From Kordiimonadaceae bacterium (GTDB lineage: Bacteria > Pseudomonadota > Alphaproteobacteria > Sphingomonadales > Emcibacteraceae): a stretch of 35,740 nucleotides of DNA. Both the position numbers and the translations under genes were made by a program. The notes beneath the pieces are model-generated. The model saw only the letters and a list, made by a program, of their open reading frames with translations, was not told where the DNA came from and ran no database searches. The stretch spans positions 1-35,740 of the forward strand of contig JABJKT010000136.1 of the NCBI GenBank assembly GCA_018660225.1. Direction: 5' to 3'. Positions 6,442-29,840 of the stretch are shown one piece after another; the first letter of the stretch is position 1, and each line of letters opens with the position of its first letter.

Positions 6442-7030
6442 CGATCAGTTTCTTAAAAGCGTTGGCGCGGTGACTAATAGCGTGCTTGGCCTGTGCTTCC
6501 ATTTCACCGAAAGTCTTACTCAGGCCATCAGCGACGAACATCGGATCATAGCCAAAACCATTTTCACCGCGGATCGGCCAAACCAGCGTGCCGTGAACCT
6601 TGCCTTCAAATGTTTCCACATGGCCGTCCGGCCAGGCCAGTGAAAGAGCGCAGGAAAAATAGGCGCTTCTGTCCTTATTTCCCAGTTCAAGATTAAGCTT
6701 TCCCATGGCATATTTAAAATCCCGCTCATCCGTATAGGGATTTAAAGCATAGCGCGCCGAATGTATGCCGGGAATACCGCCAAGCGACGGCACAACAAGC
6801 CCACTATCATCCGCCAGTGAGACAAGCCCGGATTCTTGCGTTGCGCTTTTTGATTTAATTTCGGCGTTTTGGATAAAACTATCACCGTCTTCAACGGGTT
6901 CACTAAGATCAAGTTCAGCGGATGAAAACACCTCCGCACCATATGGAGCAAGCAATTCGCTAATTTCACGAACCTTGCCTTTGTTATGGCTGGCAACAAC
7001 CAGTTTATCTTCAGCGAACTTCCTGGACAT
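6422..7030 (-). CDS. rdgB: RdgB/HAM1 non-canonical purine NTP pyrophosphatase
   Basis: Hydrolyses dITP, XTP and related deaminated purine nucleotides to monophosphates, keeping them out of DNA and RNA. Motifs are [14 protein letters not shown] at the N-terminus, [34 protein letters not shown] and [11 protein letters not shown]. Length is 202 aa, as expected. The ATG shares one base with the rph stop (TAATG), indicating translational coupling within rph-rdgB-hemW. Confidence 0.95.
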
Positions 7031-7746
7031 TAAAGACCTAATGTTTTTCTTTGAAGTTTGGTTATTTGTTCAACGCCGATCCGTGCAAGACGCATCATAC
7101 GCATCAGTTCTTCCTCGCTAAAGGGCTCCTCTTCGGCGGTGCCCTGAACTTCGACAATCTGTCCGGCACCTGTCATAACAAAATTGGCATCAGTTTCAGC
7201 GCTGCTATCTTCATCATAATCCAGATCAAGAACAGGCTGGCCTTTATAAATGCCGCATGATATTGCCGCCACTTCGTGTTTGATCGGAACTTCGCTGAGT
7301 GTTCCGTCACTGACCATTTTCTGAAGGCATTGATAAAGTGCTACATAGCCACCGGAAATAGAAGCCGTTCTTGTACCGCCGTCCGCCTGTATAACATCAC
7401 AGTCAATTCGTATCTGACATTCACCAAGCGCTTCCATATCAATAGCAGCCCTGAGAGAACGACCAACCAGACGCTGAATTTCCTGTGTGCGTCCTGATTG
7501 TTTGCCGCGCGCTGCTTCACGGCCCATCCGGCCATGTGTAGAGCGTGGTAACATACCATATTCACCGGTTACCCATCCTTTACCGCTTCCGCGCATAAAG
7601 GGTGGTGCTTTGTCTTCGAGTGTCGCTGTGCAAAGCACATGGGTATCACCGAATTTAATGAGGCAGGACCCTTCGGCATATTTTGAAAAGCCGAGTTCCA
7701 TTGATATGTCACGCATTTGATCCGCGCTACGACCGGAAGGACGCAT
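7030..7746 (-). CDS. rph: Ribonuclease PH
   Basis: Phosphorolytic 3'-5' exoribonuclease that trims tRNA precursors; it works as a hexameric ring. Motifs are [12 protein letters not shown] at the N-terminus, [50 protein letters not shown] and [20 protein letters not shown]. The 238-residue length is full. It is first in the rph-rdgB-hemW operon and divergent from hrcA, an arrangement typical of alphaproteobacteria. Confidence 0.97.
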
Positions 7747-7850
7747 ATATTTTCTCCGATTAAGTTATAAAATATTTATATTTCTGCTTTTACAGCCAAT
7801 TTAAATTCAATTCTACTAAATAGCACCGAAGAATTTATTTATCTGTGCCG

Positions 7851-7879
7851 TTGACCTTCTCTATAAGCGTACCTACATT
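7851..7879 (+). promoter_or_regulatory. Putative housekeeping promoter of hrcA-grpE
   Basis: A -35 TTGACC (7851-7856) and a -10 TACATT (7874-7879) are separated by exactly 17 nt. The predicted transcription start is only a few bases upstream of the hrcA start, so the leader would be very short. No CIRCE inverted repeat (TTAGCACTC/GAGTGCTAA) is visible in the rph-hrcA interval. Confidence 0.5.
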
Positions 7880-7893
7880 ACATTCAGAGATTG

Positions 7894-8943
7894 ATGATGA
7901 ATATATTAAACGAAAGATCACGGGAAATATTCCGCCAAATTGTCGACGCCTATATTATGACAGGTGAACCGGTTGGCTCTCGCACGCTTTCAAAAAAGAT
8001 CCAGATGCCACTTTCGCCGGCCTCGGTCCGTAATGTCATGGCCGACCTTGAAGAAAGCGGTCTGATATATTCACCCTTTACATCAGCGGGGCGGATTCCT
8101 ACCGATATAGGGCTACGTTTATTTGTTGATGGGTTACTCGAAGTGGGTAATCTAACCAAAAAAGAACGCAATAACATCGAAATTCAATGTAAAAATGAAG
8201 GCCAGCGTATGGAAGACGTACTGGTACAAGCGACCAGCATGCTTTCCGGCCTTTCTCACTGCGCTAGTATGGTTATGGCCCCAAAAAGGGATAAACCACT
8301 TAAACATATTGAATTTGTACAGATTGCACCGGGGCGCGCCCTGGTGGTTATGGTCAGCGAAGGTGATGATGTTGAAAACCGGGTCATTGATATTCCACCG
8401 GGCATTACCCCTTCCGCACTCATTCAGGCAGCTAATTATATAAATTCAAAACTTTTAGGTCACAGCTTCGAAGAAGCCAAAAATCTTATTGAACAGGAAA
8501 TAAGCATACAAAAAGCTGAACTTGACGGCCTGACGCAGAATATAGTCGAACAAGGCCTCGCTGTATGGAGCGGAACACGCAAGGATTCTAATAAAATAAA
8601 CAGAGAATCACTTATTGTACGTGGTCAGGCTAATTTACTGGATGATCTGGAAGCAGAAGAAGATTTAGAACGTGTCCGACTTCTTTTTAGTGACCTAGAG
8701 CGAAAAAAGGACCTGATTGAGCTACTTGGACTGGCAAAAAACGCTGAAGGAGTAAGAATTTTTATCGGTTCTGAAAATAATCTCTTTTCTCTTTCCGGCT
8801 CATCTGTTATCGCTGCACCTTATATGGATGAAAAAAACAATTTACTAGGCGTGATTGGCGTGATTGGCCCGACAAGGTTAAACTACGCACGGATCATTCC
8901 TATGGTTGATTACACTGCTAAAATTATTGGAAAAATACTCTAA
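7894..8943 (+). CDS. hrcA: Heat-inducible transcription repressor HrcA
   Basis: Represses class I heat-shock genes by binding CIRCE elements, with GroEL assisting its folding. It has an N-terminal winged-helix domain (RSREIFRQIVDAYIMTGEPV, then GSRTLSKK and SPASVRNVMADLEE, GLIYSPFTSAGRIPTD). This is followed by a GAF-like dimerisation region with the C-terminal GVIGVIGPTRLNYARIIPMVDYTA. The frame also allows a TTG at 7891; the tandem ATG at 7894 and 7897 are better starts. Its stop shares a base with the grpE start (TAATG). Since no CIRCE is seen here, its target is probably groESL elsewhere. Confidence 0.95.
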   Translation: MMNILNERSREIFRQIVDAYIMTGEPVGSRTLSKKIQMPLSPASVRNVMADLEESGLIYSPFTSAGRIPTDIGLRLFVDGLLEVGNLTKKERNNIEIQCKNEGQRMEDVLVQATSMLSGLSHCASMVMAPKRDKPLKHIEFVQIAPGRALVVMVSEGDDVENRVIDIPPGITPSALIQAANYINSKLLGHSFEEAKNLIEQEISIQKAELDGLTQNIVEQGLAVWSGTRKDSNKINRESLIVRGQANLLDDLEAEEDLERVRLLFSDLERKKDLIELLGLAKNAEGVRIFIGSENNLFSLSGSSVIAAPYMDEKNNLLGVIGVIGPTRLNYARIIPMVDYTAKIIGKIL

Positions 8944-9533
8944 TGGCTAAAAATAAAGAAAATAACGATCAAGAAACACCTGAAGAAGAACTCGTGGATC
9001 AAATTGATAATGAAGATGAAAGCGGACAGGAAGAAGTAACACCGCTTAGTGTCGCGGAAGATGAAATTAATGATCTTCGTGATAAACTGCTTCGTGCTGT
9101 TGCTGAAACAGAAAATGTCCGTCGTCGCTCTGAAAAAGAAAAAACAGACGCTGCCAATTATGCAGTGACTAATTTTGCCCGTGACATGCTGGCAATCGGC
9201 GATAATTTAAGCCGTGCGCTTGAGGCATTACCAGAAGAGGCAGAATTACCAGATAATATTAAAGTTCTGGTCGAAGGCGTTAAAATGACAGACCGGGAAC
9301 TTAATAATATTTTTGAGCGCCACGGCATCAGTAAAATCGAGCCAAAAGGCGAAGCTTTTGACCATAACCACCACCAGGCCATGTTTGAAGCGGAAACGGA
9401 CGATCCAAACGGCACCATTATTCAGGTAATGCAAATAGGCTATAAAATAAAAGAACGTCTGCTGCGCCCTGCCATGGTAGGCGTTTCAAAAGGCGGCGGT
9501 GATAAATCACAAGGCGTAGATACGAAGGCCTGA
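8943..9533 (+). CDS. grpE: Nucleotide exchange factor GrpE
   Basis: Co-chaperone that releases ADP from DnaK. The acidic, disordered N-terminus (about 1-40) is followed by a long helix with LRDKLLRAVAETENVRRRSE, YAVTNFARDMLAIGDNLSRA, and the beta domain FERHGISKIEPKGEAFDHN, HQAMFEAE and GYKIKERLLRPAMVGVSK. Length is 196 aa, normal. It is co-transcribed with hrcA through a 1-nt overlap and ends 1 nt before the convergent PCuAC gene. Confidence 0.96.
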   Translation: MAKNKENNDQETPEEELVDQIDNEDESGQEEVTPLSVAEDEINDLRDKLLRAVAETENVRRRSEKEKTDAANYAVTNFARDMLAIGDNLSRALEALPEEAELPDNIKVLVEGVKMTDRELNNIFERHGISKIEPKGEAFDHNHHQAMFEAETDDPNGTIIQVMQIGYKIKERLLRPAMVGVSKGGGDKSQGVDTKA

Positions 9534-9534
9534 A

Positions 9535-9969
9535 TTAAGGCTGCTTAGTCATAACCTTTACGATTTTTTCAATGGCGCCAGCTTTTTCAAACGTAAGTGT
9601 CAAATCAATCTCATCACCCGGCACATATTTTTTTGTGCTTTCAAATATCATAATATGATATCCGCCGGGTTTTAGCTCAACACTGCCACTGGCTGGCACA
9701 TCAATAAAGTCTACCTGACCCATTTTCATCACACCGTCTTTCATGGTGTGCTCATGAATTTCTAGGCGCGGTGAAATAGTAGAGGTCACGCTCGTCAGCC
9801 GATCAGCAACACCCGCATTGTTTTCAATATGAAAATAGGCGCTTCCCGGACGGCCGGCGATCAATATTGGGCGGGCCCACTCAGCCGAAACAATAATGTC
9901 GCTTTGCTCTGCCTGTACCGTTAGCGGCACTGTAATTAACACAATTATAGCCAGTAATAATTTTTTCAT
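9535..9969 (-). CDS. Periplasmic copper(I) chaperone PCuAC (DUF461)
   Basis: Periplasmic Cu(I)-binding protein that helps load copper into cytochrome c oxidase. It has a cleavable signal peptide (MKKLLLAIIVLITVPLTVQA, residues 1-20). The copper site H-x10-M-x21-H-x-M is exact: His72, Met83, His105 and Met107. Length is 144 aa, typical. It stands alone between grpE and dnaK on the opposite strand, with AGGACC upstream of the ATG as a plausible ribosome-binding site. Confidence 0.9.
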   Translation of the reverse strand: MKKLLLAIIVLITVPLTVQAEQSDIIVSAEWARPILIAGRPGSAYFHIENNAGVADRLTSVTSTISPRLEIHEHTMKDGVMKMGQVDFIDVPASGSVELKPGGYHIMIFESTKKYVPGDEIDLTLTFEKAGAIEKIVKVMTKQP

Positions 9970-10081
9970 TTAGGGTCCTCATAAAAGATATAATTTATCG
10001 CAGCTTTTATAGATTGTAGCGCATTTTTTCACAACAAGATTAAATAGAAATATAAAAAATAAAAAAACTTCACAGAAAAAC

Positions 10082-10109
10082 CTTGCAGTCATGAAAAACA
10101 GCCCTATAT
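10082..10109 (+). promoter_or_regulatory. Sigma-32 (RpoH)-type heat-shock promoter of dnaK
   Basis: CTTGCA (10082-10087) and CCCTATAT (10102-10109), with a 14-nt spacer, match the RpoH pattern CTTGAAA...CCCCATNT well. The leader to dnaK is about 100 nt and contains small inverted repeats (TCCGG...CCGGA around 10170-10190). A ribosome-binding site GAGGA lies at 10209-10213. No CIRCE is visible. Confidence 0.75.
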
Positions 10110-10217
10110 AAGCACAATGAGATAAGCGCAAAAGGCGCATTGTTATATATTAATGAAAATACTTATTTCCGGGGCATTAATGACCGGATACAAGTGATTT
10201 AGATAAACGAGGATAGT

Positions 10218-12140
10218 ATGGCTAAAGTTATTGGCATAGATTTAGGTACAACCAATTCATGTGTCTCCATTATGGACGGCGCGAAACCAAAAGTTATTGA
10301 AAATGCAGAAGGGGGTCGTACGACACCTTCAATGGTCGCATTTACAGAAGATGGTGAAAAACTAGTAGGAATGGCAGCAAAGCGTCAGGCGGTTACAAAC
10401 GCTGAGAACACGCTCTTTGCTATCAAACGTCTTATTGGTCGTTCATTTGATGATCCGGCAACCAAAAAAGATATTGAAATGGTACCTTATAAAATCATCA
10501 AATCAGACAGCAACGATGCATGGGTGGAATCACGCGGCGACAAAATGAGCCCTTCACAGGTATCTGCACTGATTTTGCAAAAAATGAAAGAAACAGCGGA
10601 ACAATATCTTGGTGAGACGGTAACCCAGGCAGTTATTACTGTTCCTGCTTACTTTAATGACGCTCAGCGTCAGGCAACTAAGGATGCCGGTAAAATTGCC
10701 GGTCTTGAAGTTCTGCGTATCATCAACGAGCCAACGGCTGCTGCTCTTGCATACGGTCTTGATAAAAATGACGGTAAGACAATTGCTGTTTATGACCTTG
10801 GTGGCGGTACTTTTGATGTATCAATTCTTGAAATCGGTGACGGCGTATTCGAAGTGAAATCTACTAACGGTGATACTTTCCTTGGTGGTGAAGATTTTGA
10901 TATGCGTCTTGTTGAATATCTTGCTGACGAATTTAAGAAAGAAAACGGTATTGATCTTAAGGGCGACAAAATGGCGCTTCAAAGATTAAAAGAAGCTGCT
11001 GAAAAAGCCAAAATTGAGCTTTCATCTGCTACTCAAACAGAAATCAACCTTCCATTCATCACTGCCGATGCATCTGGTCCTAAGCATTTAACATTAAAGC
11101 TTACCCGCGCTAAACTTGAAGCACTTGTTGCAGATCTTCTTAAGCGCACCGTTAAGCCATGTGCCGCAGCCCTTAAAGATGCTGGCCTTACTGCAGCTGA
11201 AATCGACGAAGTGGTTCTTGTTGGTGGTATGACACGGATGCCTAAAGTTGTAGAAACCGTAAAAGAATTCTTTGGTAAAGACCCTCATCAAGGTGTTAAC
11301 CCTGATGAAGTAGTTGCCATGGGTGCTGCCATTCAGGCTGGTGTGTTACAAGGCGATGTTAAAGACGTACTTCTACTTGATGTTACACCGCTTTCACTTG
11401 GTATTGAAACACTCGGTGGTGCGTTCACAAGACTTATTGACCGCAACACAACAATCCCGACCAAAAAATCACAAACTTTCTCAACGGCTGAAGATAGCCA
11501 GTCTGCTGTGACAATTCGTGTCTACCAAGGCGAGCGTGAAATGGCCGCCGATAACAAAATCCTCGGCCAATTTGACCTTGTAGGTATTCCTGCAGCTCCC
11601 CGTGGTATCCCACAAATCGAAGTGACTTTTGACATCGATGCCAACGGCATTGTGAACGTATCTGCGAAAGACAAGGGTACAGGTAAAGAGCACGCCATTC
11701 GAATTCAAGCGTCCGGTGGTCTTAGCGACGACGATATCGAAGATATGATTAAACAGGCTGAAGCGAACGCCGAAGAAGATAAAATACGTCGCGCTTTGGT
11801 TGATGCTAAGAACAAAGGTGAATCATTAGCCCACACAGTAGAGGGCCAAGTGAAAGAACATGGTGACAAGCTCGAAGATGCTGATAAAGAAACCATCGAA
11901 GACGCTATCAAAGCTGTAAGAGAAGCCCTTGAAGGCGAAGATGTTGATGCCATTAGCGGCACAACTGGCACGCTAGAGCAGGCCGCAATGAAGCTTGGTG
12001 AAGTGATCTATAGTGATCAAGCCGCTGATGGCGAAGCTGGTGAAGCTGGTGAAGCGGGCGCAGAAGAAGCACCCGAAGCTGAAGCTGATGATGATATTGT
12101 TGATGCTGACTTCGAAGAAGTTGATGATGATAAAAAATAA
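10218..12140 (+). CDS. dnaK: Molecular chaperone DnaK (Hsp70)
   Basis: ATP-driven Hsp70 chaperone that works with DnaJ and GrpE. Motifs are [59 protein letters not shown], the hydrophobic linker [19 protein letters not shown], and an acidic tail ending [17 protein letters not shown]. Length is 640 aa, full. The segment [20 protein letters not shown]-like near the C-terminus is a short low-complexity repeat. It is preceded by a sigma-32-type promoter and followed, after a stem-loop, by dnaJ. Confidence 0.98.
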
Positions 12141-22509: not shown

Positions 22510-23469
22510 CTAAAAGTCCACTTCCTGGGCAAGCCCTTGTTCGATGGCTATATCTAATACTGCCGTTGCCACACATAAATCCTGTAAGGCAATGCCTGAG
22601 CTGTCAAATATTGTTATCTGATCATCATCTGTTCGCCCGTCATGTTCACCCACTAAAACGGCCCCAATAGCCGTAATATCAAGATCTGGATTTTCACCGT
22701 AAGCCGCTTCAAATTCACCATTTACCCTTGATTGGGGCGGGTAATCAGCAAAAAGACTGGACTTTAACACAAGTTCCACCGGAAGTTCCCTCTTACCCGG
22801 CTGATCCGCACCCATGGCAGAAATATGAGTGCCCGGCTTTATCCACGCCGCGTCAAAAAGCGCCTCACGCGCCCCTGTTACTGTAACAAGTATATCCGCT
22901 TGGCGACACACAGTCTCAGAATCCGCATATTCCGCAAAAATCCCACTAGAGGCGAGTTCCATCATCGCTTTTGAAACGGTTTTTTCATTTCGGCTATGAA
23001 TAAGAACTTTCTTAATATGGCGAATAGCGCATATTGCTTTAATTTCAAAAATCGCCTGATGTCCTGCACCAAGAACACCAAGTGTGCTTGCGTCATTTCG
23101 GGCAAGGCTGTTTGATGCCACCGCATTGGCCGCCGCGGTTCTAAGGCCATTAAGGTACCCCGCATTAAGTACCGCTCTTGCAAAGCCGGTTCCTTCATCA
23201 AGAAGGATCGTCGTTGTACCGTGATTAGGGATACCTTTTAAATGATTTCCGGCCCAATATGATCCGGTTTTAAGACCACTAATTCTGAGGTCTGTAAGAT
23301 TTCCAGATTTTACCGAAAAAGTATTCCCTTCATCACAGCCCCGGCCGTGAACCACAGGAAAAATATTACCTTTTTGCTGATAAGCAGCGATAAAAGCCTG
23401 TTCAACAGCATCAAAAGCAATTTTCTGATTAGCAATTTTTTTAATATTTTCTTCGGATAAAATATGCAT
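22510..23469 (-). CDS. Ornithine cyclodeaminase / mu-crystallin family protein
   Basis: A 319-residue NAD(P)-dependent protein of the OCD/mu-crystallin family (ornithine cyclodeaminase, alanine dehydrogenase, ketimine reductases). It has VVHGRGCDEGNTFSVKSG at the N-terminus, the nucleotide-binding STLGVLGAGHQAIFEIKAIC followed by HSRNEKT, and GTHISAMGADQPGKRELPV. The substrate cannot be decided. It overlaps the stop of the upstream TIM-barrel gene by one base (TAATG), so it is translated with the glycoside operon. Confidence 0.85.
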   Translation of the reverse strand: MHILSEENIKKIANQKIAFDAVEQAFIAAYQQKGNIFPVVHGRGCDEGNTFSVKSGNLTDLRISGLKTGSYWAGNHLKGIPNHGTTTILLDEGTGFARAVLNAGYLNGLRTAAANAVASNSLARNDASTLGVLGAGHQAIFEIKAICAIRHIKKVLIHSRNEKTVSKAMMELASSGIFAEYADSETVCRQADILVTVTGAREALFDAAWIKPGTHISAMGADQPGKRELPVELVLKSSLFADYPPQSRVNGEFEAAYGENPDLDITAIGAVLVGEHDGRTDDDQITIFDSSGIALQDLCVATAVLDIAIEQGLAQEVDF

Positions 23470-24314
23470 TAGCTGATTTTAAATTCTTTCATTGTTTCCA
23501 ACCCATAGCGGATAGTCTCTAGCGGGTTTTCTGGTTCATCATGCTCGACGAAGAAATGCTCAAAACCAGCCTGCTTAATGCGGCTTAAATTTCTTTCAAA
23601 ATCAATATTTCCTTTTCCCACATCAGCAAACCAGCCATTATCATCAATATCTTTTAAATGACACATGGGGAAACGGCCAGGATAGCGATCATACCAATCA
23701 AAGGGGTCCTGCTTAGCGACAGCCATCCAGTAAAAATCCATTTCAATCTTCATTAATTCAGGATCAGTTTGCTCAAAAACCAGCTCGGCAGGCTTAATGC
23801 CATCAAGCTCGATAAATTCAAAATCATGATGATGATAACCGAACTGAATACCGGCATCCTTACACATATGTGAAGCAACATTAAGCTTTTCCACCAAAGG
23901 CTTATACTGTTCTATCCTCACCCTGTCTTCCGGCGGAACCCACCCCATAATCATATATTTCTGACCAATAGTATGGGCATCTTCAATATAGGTCTTGAAT
24001 GTTTCGACTTCCAGTTGGATCGGGTCGACATGACGGGAAACGCAGTTGAGGCCATTTTGATCAAGAGCCGCTTTAAAATCTTTTGCATTGCCACCTAAAT
24101 TAAGAATTCCCTCCACTTCCTTAAAGCCAATTTCGGCCACTTGTGCCAAAGTACGCTGCATATTTTCTGCTAGCAGATGCCTGATAGTATATAGCTGAAC
24201 ACCATAGTTTGATATTTTACCAGTTGCGCCATGAGCGCTCATTAATCCGGGCATTCCCAAAAGTGATGCAAGACTAAGGCCCGCCGTTGATTTTATAAAT
24301 TTGCGTCTGTTCAT
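23469..24314 (-). CDS. Tat-exported sugar phosphate isomerase/epimerase-like TIM barrel (copy 1)
   Basis: A 281-residue xylose-isomerase-like TIM barrel with a twin-arginine signal (NRRKFIKSTAG, followed by a hydrophobic stretch to about residue 30), hence periplasmic. Expected metal ligands are visible: Glu in FKEVEG, GYHHHDFEF, Asp in KIEMDFYWM, His in FPMCHLKD, and Glu in FFVEHDEPEN. Members of this fold in comparable clusters act on 3-keto-glycosides as lyases or epimerases; that is inferred from context and not shown by residues. It is closely related to copy 2 at 26056-26895 and lies 10 nt after the GMC gene. Confidence 0.85.
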   Translation of the reverse strand: MNRRKFIKSTAGLSLASLLGMPGLMSAHGATGKISNYGVQLYTIRHLLAENMQRTLAQVAEIGFKEVEGILNLGGNAKDFKAALDQNGLNCVSRHVDPIQLEVETFKTYIEDAHTIGQKYMIMGWVPPEDRVRIEQYKPLVEKLNVASHMCKDAGIQFGYHHHDFEFIELDGIKPAELVFEQTDPELMKIEMDFYWMAVAKQDPFDWYDRYPGRFPMCHLKDIDDNGWFADVGKGNIDFERNLSRIKQAGFEHFFVEHDEPENPLETIRYGLETMKEFKIS

Positions 24315-24324
24315 TATGATCCTC

Positions 24325-26019
24325 TTAAAGGTTATTTGCTTTCATCTGCGTCACGGCATAATCCACCGCCCGCGCCGTTAACGCCATATAAGTAAGCGAC
24401 GGGTTCTGGCAGGCTGATGACGTCATTGATGATCCATCGGTGATAAAGACATTATCCACATCATGGCACTGGTTATGAGAATTGAGTACGGATGTCTTGG
24501 GATCCCGTCCCATTCGCGCCGTGCCCATTTCATGAATACCAAGGCCTGGATATGTATCCTCATCCAGATACCCTTTTACATTTTTAAGCCCCAGATCTTC
24601 TAACATCTTCACCGATACACCAACGATCTCACGGCGCATGGTCCAATCATTTTCACCGTATGCACAATCAATATGAAGCTCAGGAATACCCCATTGGTCA
24701 ATTTTAGTTTTATGAAGTGAAACATGATTTTTATAATCTGGCAGCATCTCGCCAAAACCATCAATACTAAATGTCCATGGACCCGGTTTATTAAAGCTTT
24801 CCTTAAAATCAGCGCCGAAGCCTTTATCATCTAGTTTGTCTTTCCAGCCACGGCGCTGCGCACTACCCTGAAAGCCGAAACCACGATAATAATTTTCTTC
24901 TTGAGCGCGCAAATTTTGAAAGCGCGGAATATAAATCCCGGTGGCACGGCGCCCTACATAATATTTATCATCGTGACCCGGAAATTCGCCGCTCGCTCCC
25001 TGATTATAAAGATGATCCATTAAATAATGACCAAGCGCGCCACTGTTATTTGCAAAGCCATTTTGGAAAGTCTCACTTGTGGAATTAAGCAGTATTTGTG
25101 TAGACCCGAGCGTTGATGCGCACATGAAGATCACTCGCGCGCTGTATATTTTTGTCTCTTTGGTTTTTGAATCTATGACGCGCACACCGGTCGCCTTCTT
25201 TGTTTCCGGGTCATATACCAGACTATGAACTATGCTATCTGTGACGACCGTTAAATTGCCAGCATTTCTTGCGGCGGGAAGTGTCGCCGACTGACTTGAA
25301 AAATAGGCCCCAAATGAACACCCTCTCTGGCATTGATTTCGGTTTTGGCATGTACCGCGACCAAGAGCGAGCTGCTCTTCAGTCGGTTCAGTCAGATGCG
25401 CCGCACGCCCGATAATTAACCTTCGGTCTTCGTAAAGTTCTTCCATACGTACTTTGATGTCTTTTTCAACACAATTAAACTCCATCGGCGGTTGAAATTT
25501 CCCGTCAGGAAGTTGCGATAACCCATCATTATTACCTGTAATCCCGGCGAACAATTCAACATGATCGTACCACTTTTTCATATCTTTATAGCGGATTGGC
25601 CAATCAACGCCGTGGCCGTCTTTTTTATTGGCTTCAAAATCAAGATCTCCAAGGCGGTAACTCTGACGGTGCCAGGTCAGCGAACGCCCGCCCAGATGAT
25701 ATCCCCTGATCCAGCTAAAGGGTTTTCCCTCTTCGTGTGAATATGGGTGATCTTTATCATTAACAAAGAAGTGCTTGGTGCTATCGAGAAAAGCATAACA
25801 AAGCTTTTGAACTTCATGTTCACTATCTGCGGTTTTCCTGTCGACTTTATCGCGGAATTTCATTTCCCACGGGCCTAGCCCCTCACCAACATAATCTTCC
25901 TGATGTTCAACATGGTGACCGCGCTCAATCACTAAGGTTTTCATTCCTTTTTCAGAAAATTCCTTAGCGGCCCAACCGCCTGAAATGCCTGAACCGACTA
26001 CTATTGCATCAAAATCCAT
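24325..26019 (-). CDS. GMC-family FAD oxidoreductase with 3Fe-4S-type cysteine motif
   Basis: A 564-residue flavoprotein oxidising a sugar or alcohol hydroxyl. It has the N-terminal FAD motif GSGISGGWAAKEF (residues 9-21), then RGYHLGGRSLTWHRQS, the C-terminal GIHEMGTARMG with catalytic His496, and Asn539 in CQNPSLTYMA. Cys224, Cys230 and Cys234 form C-x5-C-x3-C, the spacing reported for the 3Fe-4S cluster of bacterial FAD glucose dehydrogenase. It has no signal peptide, so export by hitchhiking on the Tat-bearing subunit-3-like protein (27041-27577) is likely. Related enzymes include glucose 3-dehydrogenases; C3 oxidation here is inferred from context. A second GMC gene in this operon has been deleted. 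Confidence 0.9.
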   Translation of the reverse strand: MDFDAIVVGSGISGGWAAKEFSEKGMKTLVIERGHHVEHQEDYVGEGLGPWEMKFRDKVDRKTADSEHEVQKLCYAFLDSTKHFFVNDKDHPYSHEEGKPFSWIRGYHLGGRSLTWHRQSYRLGDLDFEANKKDGHGVDWPIRYKDMKKWYDHVELFAGITGNNDGLSQLPDGKFQPPMEFNCVEKDIKVRMEELYEDRRLIIGRAAHLTEPTEEQLALGRGTCQNRNQCQRGCSFGAYFSSQSATLPAARNAGNLTVVTDSIVHSLVYDPETKKATGVRVIDSKTKETKIYSARVIFMCASTLGSTQILLNSTSETFQNGFANNSGALGHYLMDHLYNQGASGEFPGHDDKYYVGRRATGIYIPRFQNLRAQEENYYRGFGFQGSAQRRGWKDKLDDKGFGADFKESFNKPGPWTFSIDGFGEMLPDYKNHVSLHKTKIDQWGIPELHIDCAYGENDWTMRREIVGVSVKMLEDLGLKNVKGYLDEDTYPGLGIHEMGTARMGRDPKTSVLNSHNQCHDVDNVFITDGSSMTSSACQNPSLTYMALTARAVDYAVTQMKANNL

Positions 26020-26055: not shown

Positions 26056-26895
26056 TTAGCTAATCATAAAGCCCTTAGCTGTATCATAGCTCGTTATCAT
26101 CATCTGTACTTCGTCCCCAGGTGTGTCATGCTCAACAAAGAAATGTTTTAGCCCTGCATGACTTGCTTTTGCTAAAATTGCGTTAAAGTCAATGGCGCCA
26201 TTACCAACATAAACCATTTCACCGTCCTCGCGTCTGTCTTTGACATGACACATATGAAAACGTCCCGGATATTTATCAAAATATTCAAATGGATCATGAC
26301 CCGCTTCAATGATCCAGAACAGATCCATTTCCATTACCATAATATCATCTGATAACTGTTCAAGCAGCATGTCATAGGGCTTAACACCGTCAAATGGTTT
26401 AAATTCAAATTCATGGTTATGATAAGCAAAATTGATCCCCGCTTTATTACACTGCTCCCCCACCGCCTGGAATAGCTCGGCATTGCGCTTGTACTGATCC
26501 ATCGATTTTCTGTTTTCTTCACCGAGCCAGGCAAGTGTAATATATTTCTGATCCATGGTTGCTGCATATTCAATAGTTGCTTTCAGCGCATCACCGCGAA
26601 GTTGATCAATATTCACGTGGATTGACGGGCTAACAAGACCGTTTTGATCGATCATCGCCTTCACATCCCTCGCACTGCGGCCATAATAATTGAAGAACTC
26701 CACTTCTTTGTAACCAATTTCCGCTACCTGCGCGAGGCTTGCTTCCATATTTTCAGCCATCATATTGCGGATGGTATAAAGCTGAATCCCAACATTTCCA
26801 ATTGGCGCTGCAAAGGCGCGTGTAAGACCGCCCATGCTCAACATGCTCGCCGCACTAAAAGCTGCAGTGGTTTTGATAAATTTACGTCTATTCAT
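26056..26895 (-). CDS. Tat-exported sugar phosphate isomerase/epimerase-like TIM barrel (copy 2)
   Basis: A 279-residue TIM barrel with the twin-arginine signal NRRKFIKTTAAFSAASMLSM. It shares most motifs with copy 1: GIQLYTIRNMMAENMEASLA, QVAEIGYKEVEFF, FAYHNHEFEF, MEMDLFWIIEAGHDPFEYFD, KYPGRFHMCHVKD and FFVEHDTPGDE. The Glu/Asp/His/Glu metal site looks intact. Copies 1 and 2 alternate with GMC genes (one intact, one deleted), suggesting a duplicated two-gene unit. A role in periplasmic cleavage or isomerisation of 3-keto sugars is inferred. Confidence 0.85.
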   Translation of the reverse strand: MNRRKFIKTTAAFSAASMLSMGGLTRAFAAPIGNVGIQLYTIRNMMAENMEASLAQVAEIGYKEVEFFNYYGRSARDVKAMIDQNGLVSPSIHVNIDQLRGDALKATIEYAATMDQKYITLAWLGEENRKSMDQYKRNAELFQAVGEQCNKAGINFAYHNHEFEFKPFDGVKPYDMLLEQLSDDIMVMEMDLFWIIEAGHDPFEYFDKYPGRFHMCHVKDRREDGEMVYVGNGAIDFNAILAKASHAGLKHFFVEHDTPGDEVQMMITSYDTAKGFMIS

Positions 26896-26911: not shown

Positions 26912-27046
26912 TTAAAGCGCATTTGCTTTCATTTGTGTGACGGCATAATCCACAGCTCTTGCCGTAAAGGCCATATAAGTTAGTGAAGGTTTCTGACACG
27001 TCGATGAAGCCCGCTGCCCCATCGGTGATAAAAACATTCCCTACGT
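26912..27046 (-). pseudogene. 3'-terminal remnant of a second GMC oxidoreductase gene
   Basis: The minus strand here encodes DVGNVFITDG, then after a frame change CQKPSLTYMAFTARAVDYAV and a C-terminus ending in stop at 26912-26914. This parallels DVDNVFITDG...CQNPSLTYMALTARAVDYAV at the end of the intact GMC gene (24325-26019). A nucleotide comparison between the conserved GATGG and ACTTATATGG gives 38 nt here against 40 nt there, a net 2-nt deletion causing the frameshift. Only about 45 codons remain. The body of the gene is missing, and the remnant abuts and slightly overlaps the end of the subunit-3-like gene. Confidence 0.85.
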
Positions 27047-27577
27047 CGCCCACGTGCGGCCAACTTGCTCAAACGGCACACATCCCTGATATGGTCCTGG
27101 ATATTGTTCGTAACGAAGTTCTTCTTCGGCACCGATCTGCGATGTAAAATACCCGACTAGAGTAAGCTCTTTAAATTCGGCAAAAAAGCTCTTGTCTTCT
27201 GTTTCTTCATTATCCATTTCGCTCATAATGCTATGACGTTCATCCGCTGAGCCGCTCATAAAGCGGCTATCGACAGCCGCCAGACCTTTCATGAAATTTT
27301 CTCGCTCGTCGTCGTAATACCAATCAGATACAATCAAATGGATATAGTCTGGCACTCCCGCCATTATAGCACCGGGTGTGTCGGTATCAGGAATAATCAT
27401 TTGTGCCATTTCACTAACCAAATTTAGCTGATCCGCTGAAAAGGCCGCATTGTTAATATCCTGTGCGGCCGCACCACTAAGTACACCGCTTATAACCGAT
27501 GCGGATAATGCACCACCAGTCATAAGGGCAACCGTTTTAAGCATTTGCCGCCTGTTTAAATCATTAAAATCTGTCAT
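27041..27577 (-). CDS. Gluconate 2-dehydrogenase subunit 3-like Tat protein
   Basis: A 178-residue small subunit of GMC-type dehydrogenases (gluconate_2-dh3 family). It has a twin-arginine signal (NRRQMLKTVALMTGGALS), then DQLNLVSEMAQMIIPDTDTP, GAIMAGVPDYIHLIVSDWY and the C-terminal YPGPYQGCVPFEQVGRTWAT. Such subunits escort the signal-less FAD subunit through the Tat pathway and assist maturation. The last codons and stop run into the remnant of a deleted GMC gene, so its original C-terminus may have been changed by a few residues. It is now the only visible partner for the intact GMC protein. Confidence 0.85.
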   Translation of the reverse strand: MTDFNDLNRRQMLKTVALMTGGALSASVISGVLSGAAAQDINNAAFSADQLNLVSEMAQMIIPDTDTPGAIMAGVPDYIHLIVSDWYYDDERENFMKGLAAVDSRFMSGSADERHSIMSEMDNEETEDKSFFAEFKELTLVGYFTSQIGAEEELRYEQYPGPYQGCVPFEQVGRTWAT

Positions 27578-27580
27578 GGT

Positions 27581-28633
27581 TTATAGTCCTAAAACTTTAT
27601 TATTTAAATCCGCATCCGATCCTGCACCGGCAAAATCATCAAAGCTCCGCTCGGCTGGCTTGATGATATGATCACTAACAAACTGTGCACCCTCTTTTGC
27701 GCCAGTTTCCGCATCCTTAATGCAGCATTCCCATTCAACAACGGCCCAGCCATCAAATCCGTACTGTGTAAGCTTACTAAAAATGCCGTTAAAATCGATC
27801 TGACCGTCGCCTAGCGATCTAAAGCGGCCCGGCCGGTCAACCCACGACTGATAGCCACCATAAACACCAGAGCGCCCATTTGTATTAAGCTCACCATCTT
27901 TGACATGGAACATCTTAATACGTTCATGGTAAATATCAATAAATTCCAGATAATCCATTCCCTGCAAAATCAGATGACTTGGATCATATAAAATATTTGC
28001 TCGCGGGTGATTATCAACCGCCTTAAGAAACATTTCAAAACTTACCCCATCATGAAGATCTTCACCGGGATGGATTTCATAACAAACATCAACACCAACG
28101 TCATCAAAGGCGTTGAGAATTGGTAACCAGCGCCTGGCAAGTTCGGCAAAGCCCTGCTCAACCAACCCCTCAGGACGCTGCGGCCATGGATAGACCGTAT
28201 GCCAAAGAAGTGCCCCCGGGAATGTCACATGTGCCGTCAGCCCAAGGTTCTTACTGGCTTTTGCTGCCAGCATTAATTGCTCAGTGGCCCATTTCTCTTT
28301 GGCTTTATGATCATCCTTAGCGTGATCGGGGCCAAAGGCGTTAAAGAGCGTATCATATGCCGGATGGCAAGCTACCAATTGACCCTGAACGTGGGTCGAT
28401 AGTTCAGTGATTTCCACACCATATTTTGCTGCTGTTTTTATTAGATCGTCGCAATAAGTCTGATCTTCCGCCGCTCGTTCAAGATCAAATATACGTCCGT
28501 CCCACGACGGAATTTGAACACCAATATAACCGATTGACGCCGCCCATTCGACAATGGATTCAAAGCTATTATAGGGCGCTTCATCACCTGCAAACTGTGC
28601 TAAAAAAAGCGCTGGTCCTTTAATTTGTTTCAT
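27581..28633 (-). CDS. Cytoplasmic sugar phosphate isomerase/epimerase-like TIM barrel (copy 3)
   Basis: A 350-residue TIM barrel, longer than copies 1 and 2 and without a signal peptide. Visible motifs are SIGYIGVQIPSWDGRIFDL, ELSTHVQGQLVACHPAYD, CYEIHPGEDLHDG, ANILYDPSHLILQGMDYLEF, MFHVKDGELNTNGRSG and WAVVEWECCIKD. The putative metal ligands Glu (YEIHP), Asp/His (YDPSH), His (FHVKD) and Glu (VEWE) are present. Proteins of this type sit beside Gfo/Idh/MocA oxidoreductases in 3-keto-glycoside and keto-sugar pathways, and a cytosolic keto-sugar lyase or isomerase is inferred. It lies 10 nt after the oxidoreductase gene and 3 nt before the subunit-3 gene. Confidence 0.85.
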   Translation of the reverse strand: MKQIKGPALFLAQFAGDEAPYNSFESIVEWAASIGYIGVQIPSWDGRIFDLERAAEDQTYCDDLIKTAAKYGVEITELSTHVQGQLVACHPAYDTLFNAFGPDHAKDDHKAKEKWATEQLMLAAKASKNLGLTAHVTFPGALLWHTVYPWPQRPEGLVEQGFAELARRWLPILNAFDDVGVDVCYEIHPGEDLHDGVSFEMFLKAVDNHPRANILYDPSHLILQGMDYLEFIDIYHERIKMFHVKDGELNTNGRSGVYGGYQSWVDRPGRFRSLGDGQIDFNGIFSKLTQYGFDGWAVVEWECCIKDAETGAKEGAQFVSDHIIKPAERSFDDFAGAGSDADLNNKVLGL

Positions 28634-28643
28634 ATTTTAGTTC

Positions 28644-29807
28644 CTAGTTTTCAATTTTTATCCATTTCTCATTTGAATTGGTGCTTTTCACCAACGCTTC
28701 AACGAAGGCCATGCCACGCACGCCTTCTTCAATTCCGATAAGGCCGTGCCCCATATAATCCCCCTCGAAGGCTCTGATCGCTTCAGCAAACCCTGTATAT
28801 AGATTGGCAAATGCCTCAAGATAGCCTTCTGGATGTCCTGATGGTAAGCGGCAAGCACTGTATGCTTCTGCCGATAAATTGCTTTTATCCAACCCAGCCG
28901 TATATGTCTGCATCGCTGCACCGTGCGGTTTATAATAAAGATTAAATGGTTCCATCTGGTGCCATTCAAGACCGCCTTTTTCGCCGTAAATTTTAATCTT
29001 CAGGGCATTTTCCTCACCGGCGCAAATCTGGCTCGCCGTTAAAGTGCCGCTGGCTCCGTTTTGCATACGGAATAAAACAGAGCCGTCATCATCGAGAAGG
29101 CGCCCTTTAACATATATATTCAAGTCCGCGCAAACATCGACCATTATATCACCAGATATATATTCCGCCAGATTATGGGCATGTGTGCCGATATCACCCA
29201 TCGCACCCGCAACACCCGATTTCGCGGGATCCATGCGCCACTCAGCTTGTTTATTATCCACATCCTGCGAAAGCCAGCCCTGGGGATATTCAACCAGTAT
29301 TTTACGAATTTCACCTAACTTGCCATCTTTAACCATCGCTCTAGCCTGCTTGACCATCGGGTATCCAAGATAAGTATGGGTAAGGCCGTAAAGGAGGCCT
29401 GTTTCATCTACAATATCCTGAAGTTTTTTTGCTTCATCAAGATTAAGTGTTGCCGGCTTATCGGACATCACATGAAATCCTGCCCTGAGGGCCGCCTCGG
29501 CTGGCGGTAAATGCAAATGATTTGGCGTGACAATGGCCACGAAATCCATCCGCTCACCGATCGGCAGGGCCGCTTCTTTTTCCATCATCTGGTTATAATC
29601 CTCGTAAACTCTGGCAGGATCAAGAAACAGATCACTGCCTGTCTGTTTGGATTTTTCAAAATCACTACTGAAAGAACCGCAGACAAGTTCTATTTGATTA
29701 TCAAGTCGCGCCGCCATGCGGTGCACTTCGCCGATAAAAGAACCCGGTCCGCCACCGACCATCCCCATTCTTATTTTACGGCTTGAGGCATTAATTTGAT
29801 CAGACAT
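28644..29807 (-). CDS. Gfo/Idh/MocA-family NAD(P)-dependent oxidoreductase
   Basis: A 387-residue cytosolic oxidoreductase and first gene of the long minus-strand operon. It has the Rossmann motif GMVGGGPGSFIGEVH, FVAIVTPNHLHLPPAEAAL, the catalytic-Lys block MSDKPATLN (variant of EKP), and GDIGTHAHNLAEYISG with the conserved Asp/His pair. The C-terminal domain contains SGHPEGYLEAFANLY. The family oxidises or reduces sugar ring hydroxyls, including C3 of glucosides; that substrate is inferred. TTG at 29810 extends the frame, but ATG 29807 has AGGGAG upstream. It is driven by a LacI-operated promoter at 29843-29871. Confidence 0.9.
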   Translation of the reverse strand: MSDQINASSRKIRMGMVGGGPGSFIGEVHRMAARLDNQIELVCGSFSSDFEKSKQTGSDLFLDPARVYEDYNQMMEKEAALPIGERMDFVAIVTPNHLHLPPAEAALRAGFHVMSDKPATLNLDEAKKLQDIVDETGLLYGLTHTYLGYPMVKQARAMVKDGKLGEIRKILVEYPQGWLSQDVDNKQAEWRMDPAKSGVAGAMGDIGTHAHNLAEYISGDIMVDVCADLNIYVKGRLLDDDGSVLFRMQNGASGTLTASQICAGEENALKIKIYGEKGGLEWHQMEPFNLYYKPHGAAMQTYTAGLDKSNLSAEAYSACRLPSGHPEGYLEAFANLYTGFAEAIRAFEGDYMGHGLIGIEEGVRGMAFVEALVKSTNSNEKWIKIEN

Positions 29808-29840
29808 CAAAACTCCCTATTTTTTATCCTATATCCCTAA

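Follow-up and report, generated by a model that had tools for sequence, protein, structure and literature searches.

A decayed 3′ end of a GMC oxidoreductase gene beside an intact subunit-3 gene in a Kordiimonadaceae gene cluster

Composition of the locus and related systems

Complexes of the Burkholderia cepacia glucose dehydrogenase (BcGDH) and fructose dehydrogenase type combine a GMC α subunit with a Tat hitchhiker γ subunit, and the catalytic subunit of BcGDH depends on this small subunit to fold and to be secreted (PMC6719666). Two further activities bear on the present locus: FAD-GO of Rhizobium sp. GIN611 is an FAD-dependent glycoside oxidoreductase that oxidizes the 3-OH (PMC4650693), and enzymes which cleave 3-keto-glycosides by β-elimination are known (PMC10628242).

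The window analyzed here, the whole stretch of 35,740 nucleotides of Kordiimonadaceae DNA, contains a cluster which can be compared with both kinds of system. Its features are as follows:

23469-24314, minus strand: TIM-barrel gene 2 (PF01261), of the clade we call TIMb
24325-26019, minus strand: retained intact, full-length GMC oxidoreductase gene (PF00732 and PF05199), GMC-B
26056-26895, minus strand: TIM-barrel gene (PF01261) of the TIMc clade; its orthologue follows GMC-B in relatives G024 and G028
26912-27047, minus strand: 3′ remnant of a GMC oxidoreductase gene, about 45 codons, with a 2-nt deletion near 27012, a catalytic Asn codon changed to Lys and a native stop at 26912-26914
27030-27047, minus strand: deletion junction GACGTAGGGAATG, compatible with the end of subunit 3 (GCGACGTAG, also in relative G026) as well as with a GMC tail (GAYGTNNNNAATG)
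27041-27577, minus strand: gluconate 2-dehydrogenase subunit 3 (PF13618), intact, with a twin-arginine N-terminus and a native stop
27581-28633, minus strand: TIM-barrel gene (PF01261) upstream of subunit 3, a conserved neighbor
28644-29810, minus strand: Gfo/Idh/MocA oxidoreductase gene, a conserved neighbor

As in the BcGDH type, subunit 3, which scores 88 bits for PF13618 (curated cut-off 23.4), has a twin-arginine N-terminus (NRRQMLK, read from the sequence); GMC-B, read in the same way, does not. GMC-B can be aligned along its length with fructose dehydrogenase, and for the most part also with the large subunits of glucose dehydrogenases. It has the catalytic His/Asn pair (located by aligning it with 6a2u, the residues being those given in PMC6719666) and, by eye, a Cys-rich motif C-x5-C-x3-C where cysteines occur in these enzymes. 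Unlike in those systems, several GMC genes go with one subunit 3, TIM-barrel and Gfo/Idh genes are present as well, and the sequence similarity is only distant. Comparison of subunit 3 with PDB sequences gave no convincing match, and among the genes examined at the locus none next to the cluster was identified as a cytochrome.

The GMC, TIM-barrel and Gfo/Idh genes can be likened to FAD-GO and the 3-keto-glycoside cleavage systems in their gene combination, which suggests a role in sugar or glycoside oxidation, probably in the periplasm. By analogy with the Burkholderia glucose dehydrogenase, subunit 3 would carry the Tat signal and co-export the signal-less GMC subunits.

In a tree of GMC proteins, those encoded next to subunit 3 in relatives form a clade, GMC-A, separate from the GMC-B clade which holds the retained gene.

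The remnant and the subunit-3 end

In local alignment, minus-strand positions 27038 to 26872 match the intact GMC gene at its 3′ end, the short spacer behind it and the start of the next TIM-barrel gene. The alignment scores 129, whereas 300 shuffles reached no more than 26, and it contains a 2-nt gap which falls after GGGGCAGC (~27012). Searching with the intact GMC protein by tblastn likewise splits the tail over two frames (residues 520-531 and 524-564, E(2)=2e-12), and the search of the window's own genome lists it as a 40-residue match. With a disabled reading frame and homology to the end of a GMC gene, this is a pseudogene remnant. The preliminary description, which had proposed a C-terminal GMC scar of about 45 codons with a 2-nt frameshift relative to the paralogue at 24325, is borne out on both points. 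The limits it gave, 26912-27046, are right to within a few bases, and the stop codon is indeed at 26912-26914; the similarity, however, carries on past 26912, across the spacer and up to where the next gene starts (26872). At the other end it begins at DV/GN, ~27047-27038, overlapping the last subunit-3 codons by a few nucleotides.

Two of the 21 codons which are invariant across 23 intact reference GMC tails have been lost from the remnant, against 0-1 in intact genes in this small sample, as have three of the 30 that are invariant among GMC-A tails. One of the two was destroyed by the frameshift; the other, Asn539, aligns with Asn519 of BcGDH, which is part of the His/Asn catalytic pair (PMC6719666). 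Small as the sample is, these losses indicate that selective constraint has been lost and that the remnant would have decayed without protein constraint after it arose. Since its changes are few, the deletion may be recent relative to the species splits. No intermediate relative for dating it was found, and the second assembly described below is nearly identical to the window.

We considered whether the remnant could have a function. As a promoter or terminator it was rejected: promoter-like sites number 1, with 0.7 expected, and there is no terminator. It might also be expressed as a short GMC C-terminal peptide of 41 codons, re-initiating at an ATG 4 nt past the subunit-3 stop, as no stop interrupts the reading frame from 27037 to 26912, which finishes in the GMC tail. 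That ATG, however, is found in another frame in almost every GMC tail (it is the aATGt of the Asn-Val codons), chance opening is needed for only ~8 codons, conserved residues are lost and the frame is common to no relative, so we give this explanation very little credence.

The stop codon of subunit 3, at 27041-27043, follows VGRTWAT, and subunit 3 ends in this way in all genus relatives in which that end is sequenced; in G026 the end is identical in nucleotides (TGGGCGACGTAG). The stop is thus native to the family, which means that subunit 3 has been neither fused nor shortened, contrary to the earlier wording of a GMC gene "fused" to its end. The placement of the deletion endpoint at this stop, with a GMC gene deleted between subunit 3 and the TIM-barrel gene, has held up. 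The junction can be read as the subunit-3 end or as the Asp-Val...Asn-Val stretch of a GMC protein. Because it fits the two alike, with apparent microhomology of up to ~6 nt, the exact breakpoint cannot be placed.

The same junction, identical over 351 bp, is found in a second assembly, on contig C180 of relative G025 (JABIPV010000253, Kordiimonadaceae SI072_bin126). This contig and the window share 14,560 bp, in which there is one SNP, and its ends differ from those of the window's contig. As the other G025 loci compared are only ~65-75% identical to the window's genome, C180 appears to derive from the window's species and to have been placed in the G025 bin; we treat it as independently assembled, from the same population or one very close to it, and not as an independent lineage. 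Cross-binning is probable, the bin holding this 27-kb contig as well as a diverged cluster copy of its own (C61).

An assembly collapse or chimera, in which the contig lacks a GMC gene that the cell possesses, was a check that the preliminary description had called for, and both the metagenomic origin of the assembly and the repeated paralogues in the cluster could favor it. That a second assembly, whose contig ends elsewhere, has the identical junction makes a collapse unlikely. The remnant moreover bears decay (the frameshift and the Asn-to-Lys change) which would not be expected in the tail of an intact gene, and the exact repeats it shares with GMC-B are short, ~14 nt as read from the alignment. 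We therefore regard an artefact as highly improbable.

Intact counterparts in relatives and the lost copy

An intact GMC gene directly follows subunit 3 at nine loci of the genus (G020, G024, G025:C61, G026, G027, G028, G029, G030 and UBA4441/G021), which speaks against the alternative, raised in the preliminary description, of relatives with the same short spacer and no GMC gene. The spacers are 18-64 bp long in the first eight; the UBA4441/G021 contig starts inside subunit 3. The GMC-A proteins of these loci are 64-69% identical to the retained GMC. The arrangement recurs in another genus (G004), and in G032 a TIM-barrel gene sits between subunit 3 and the GMC gene. Intact GMC-A genes comprise 561-563 codons, so that with ~45 left the loss amounts to about 1.55 kb plus the spacer. 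The search of the window's own genome for a GMC-A elsewhere found none (best matches GMC-B at 68%, C219 at 57% and C72 at 46%), and a relocated copy was rejected on that ground.

G029 (L046) and G032 (L051) present the mirror image, having kept an A-type GMC with no GMC-B in the cluster; their spacers are short, with no room for a remnant.

We consider it likely that the remnant was left by a deletion of ~1.6 kb in a GMC cluster typical of the genus. The ancestral order would have been Gfo/Idh, TIM barrel, subunit 3, GMC-A, TIM barrel, GMC-B, TIM barrel, and a single event with one end at the subunit-3 stop would have taken the spacer and ~517 GMC codons. The case resembles gene remnants from partial deletion in tandem paralogue arrays, in that a stump stands beside an intact paralogue and relatives carry intact orthologues, and differs from them in nothing fundamental; differential gene loss in such arrays is a known, ordinary kind of event.

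Position and likelihood favor GMC-A as the lost copy. Maximum-likelihood placement of the 130-nt remnant is best inside the GMC-A clade, with a c-ELW, summed by hand, of ~0.72 against 0.13 for GMC-B; attachment to the window's own GMC-B is worse by 3.7 lnL units and is not rejected (AU 0.22). The remnant might instead be the end of a second, B-type GMC gene preceding TIMc, if a larger deletion (~3.3 kb) removed the whole of GMC-A and most of that gene. Its highest raw nucleotide identity is to the tail of the window's own GMC-B (101/130), and its C-terminus, VTQMKANAL, resembles that of GMC-B. The adjoining TIM-barrel gene falls in a clade with genes that come after GMC-B in G024 and G028 and, in G020, after a divergent GMC; G024 has the same 16-nt gap between GMC stop and TIM start. 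The history may accordingly include two GMC genes or a rearrangement. Against it, the placement prefers the GMC-A clade, the required order (A, B-type, TIMc, B) is seen in no relative, and an extra duplication is needed; we judge the larger deletion improbable. Any placement of the remnant is weakened by gene conversion, which is suggested in G026 (L057), where the 3′ tails of GMC-A and GMC-B (genes 6552-8240 and 9130-10824) are 0.83-0.90 identical and the remaining windows 0.58-0.75.

Subunit 3 and its GMC partners

Neither subunit 3 nor GMC-B looks relaxed as judged from substitutions: subunit 3 is changed at 2 of 84 sites that are invariant in its relatives, whose own range is 0-4, and GMC-B at 9 of 343 such sites, against 2-15 in relatives. 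Decay of subunit 3 as an orphan was considered and there is no sign of it.

The sole difference between the window and C180 is at window position 25867 (L015:7711), where Trp51 of GMC-B, TGG, reads as a TGA stop in C180. This would leave the C180 strain without an intact GMC gene at the locus; a consensus error is possible.

The preliminary description had concluded that the original partner of subunit 3 was lost and that the other GMC protein was left as its only local partner. This is too strong. Relatives have two or three complete GMC genes alongside a single subunit 3 (at G025:C61 the end of the contig interrupts a fourth), and GMC-B belongs to the same cluster there. Subunit-3 genes without an adjoining GMC are moreover found in three species of the genus (G000:C154, G026:C140 and G032:C62). 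With several GMCs per subunit 3 in relatives and GMC-B in the same cluster, GMC-B probably still uses subunit 3; most likely subunit 3 now serves this pre-existing member of the cluster and is not an orphan deprived of its sole partner.

A second subunit-3 gene in the window's own genome, on contig C154 (L092:5043-5627), has no GMC gene, and a convergent gene lies 13 bp past its stop. A GMC gene follows its homologue in G025 (C289); the homologues in G026 and G032 have no adjoining GMC.

More tentatively, and with slightly less than even confidence, we propose that in this genus one Tat hitchhiker subunit 3 serves several different GMC catalytic subunits, so that GMCs may be lost, swapped or added without loss of subunit 3. 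The remnant would then record one turnover of partners, and in the sister strain the last local GMC may be breaking, with the stop at Trp51. The case documents gain and loss of members in tandem GMC dehydrogenase arrays while the shared small subunit stays, and it makes testable the idea of one export subunit serving several catalytic subunits.
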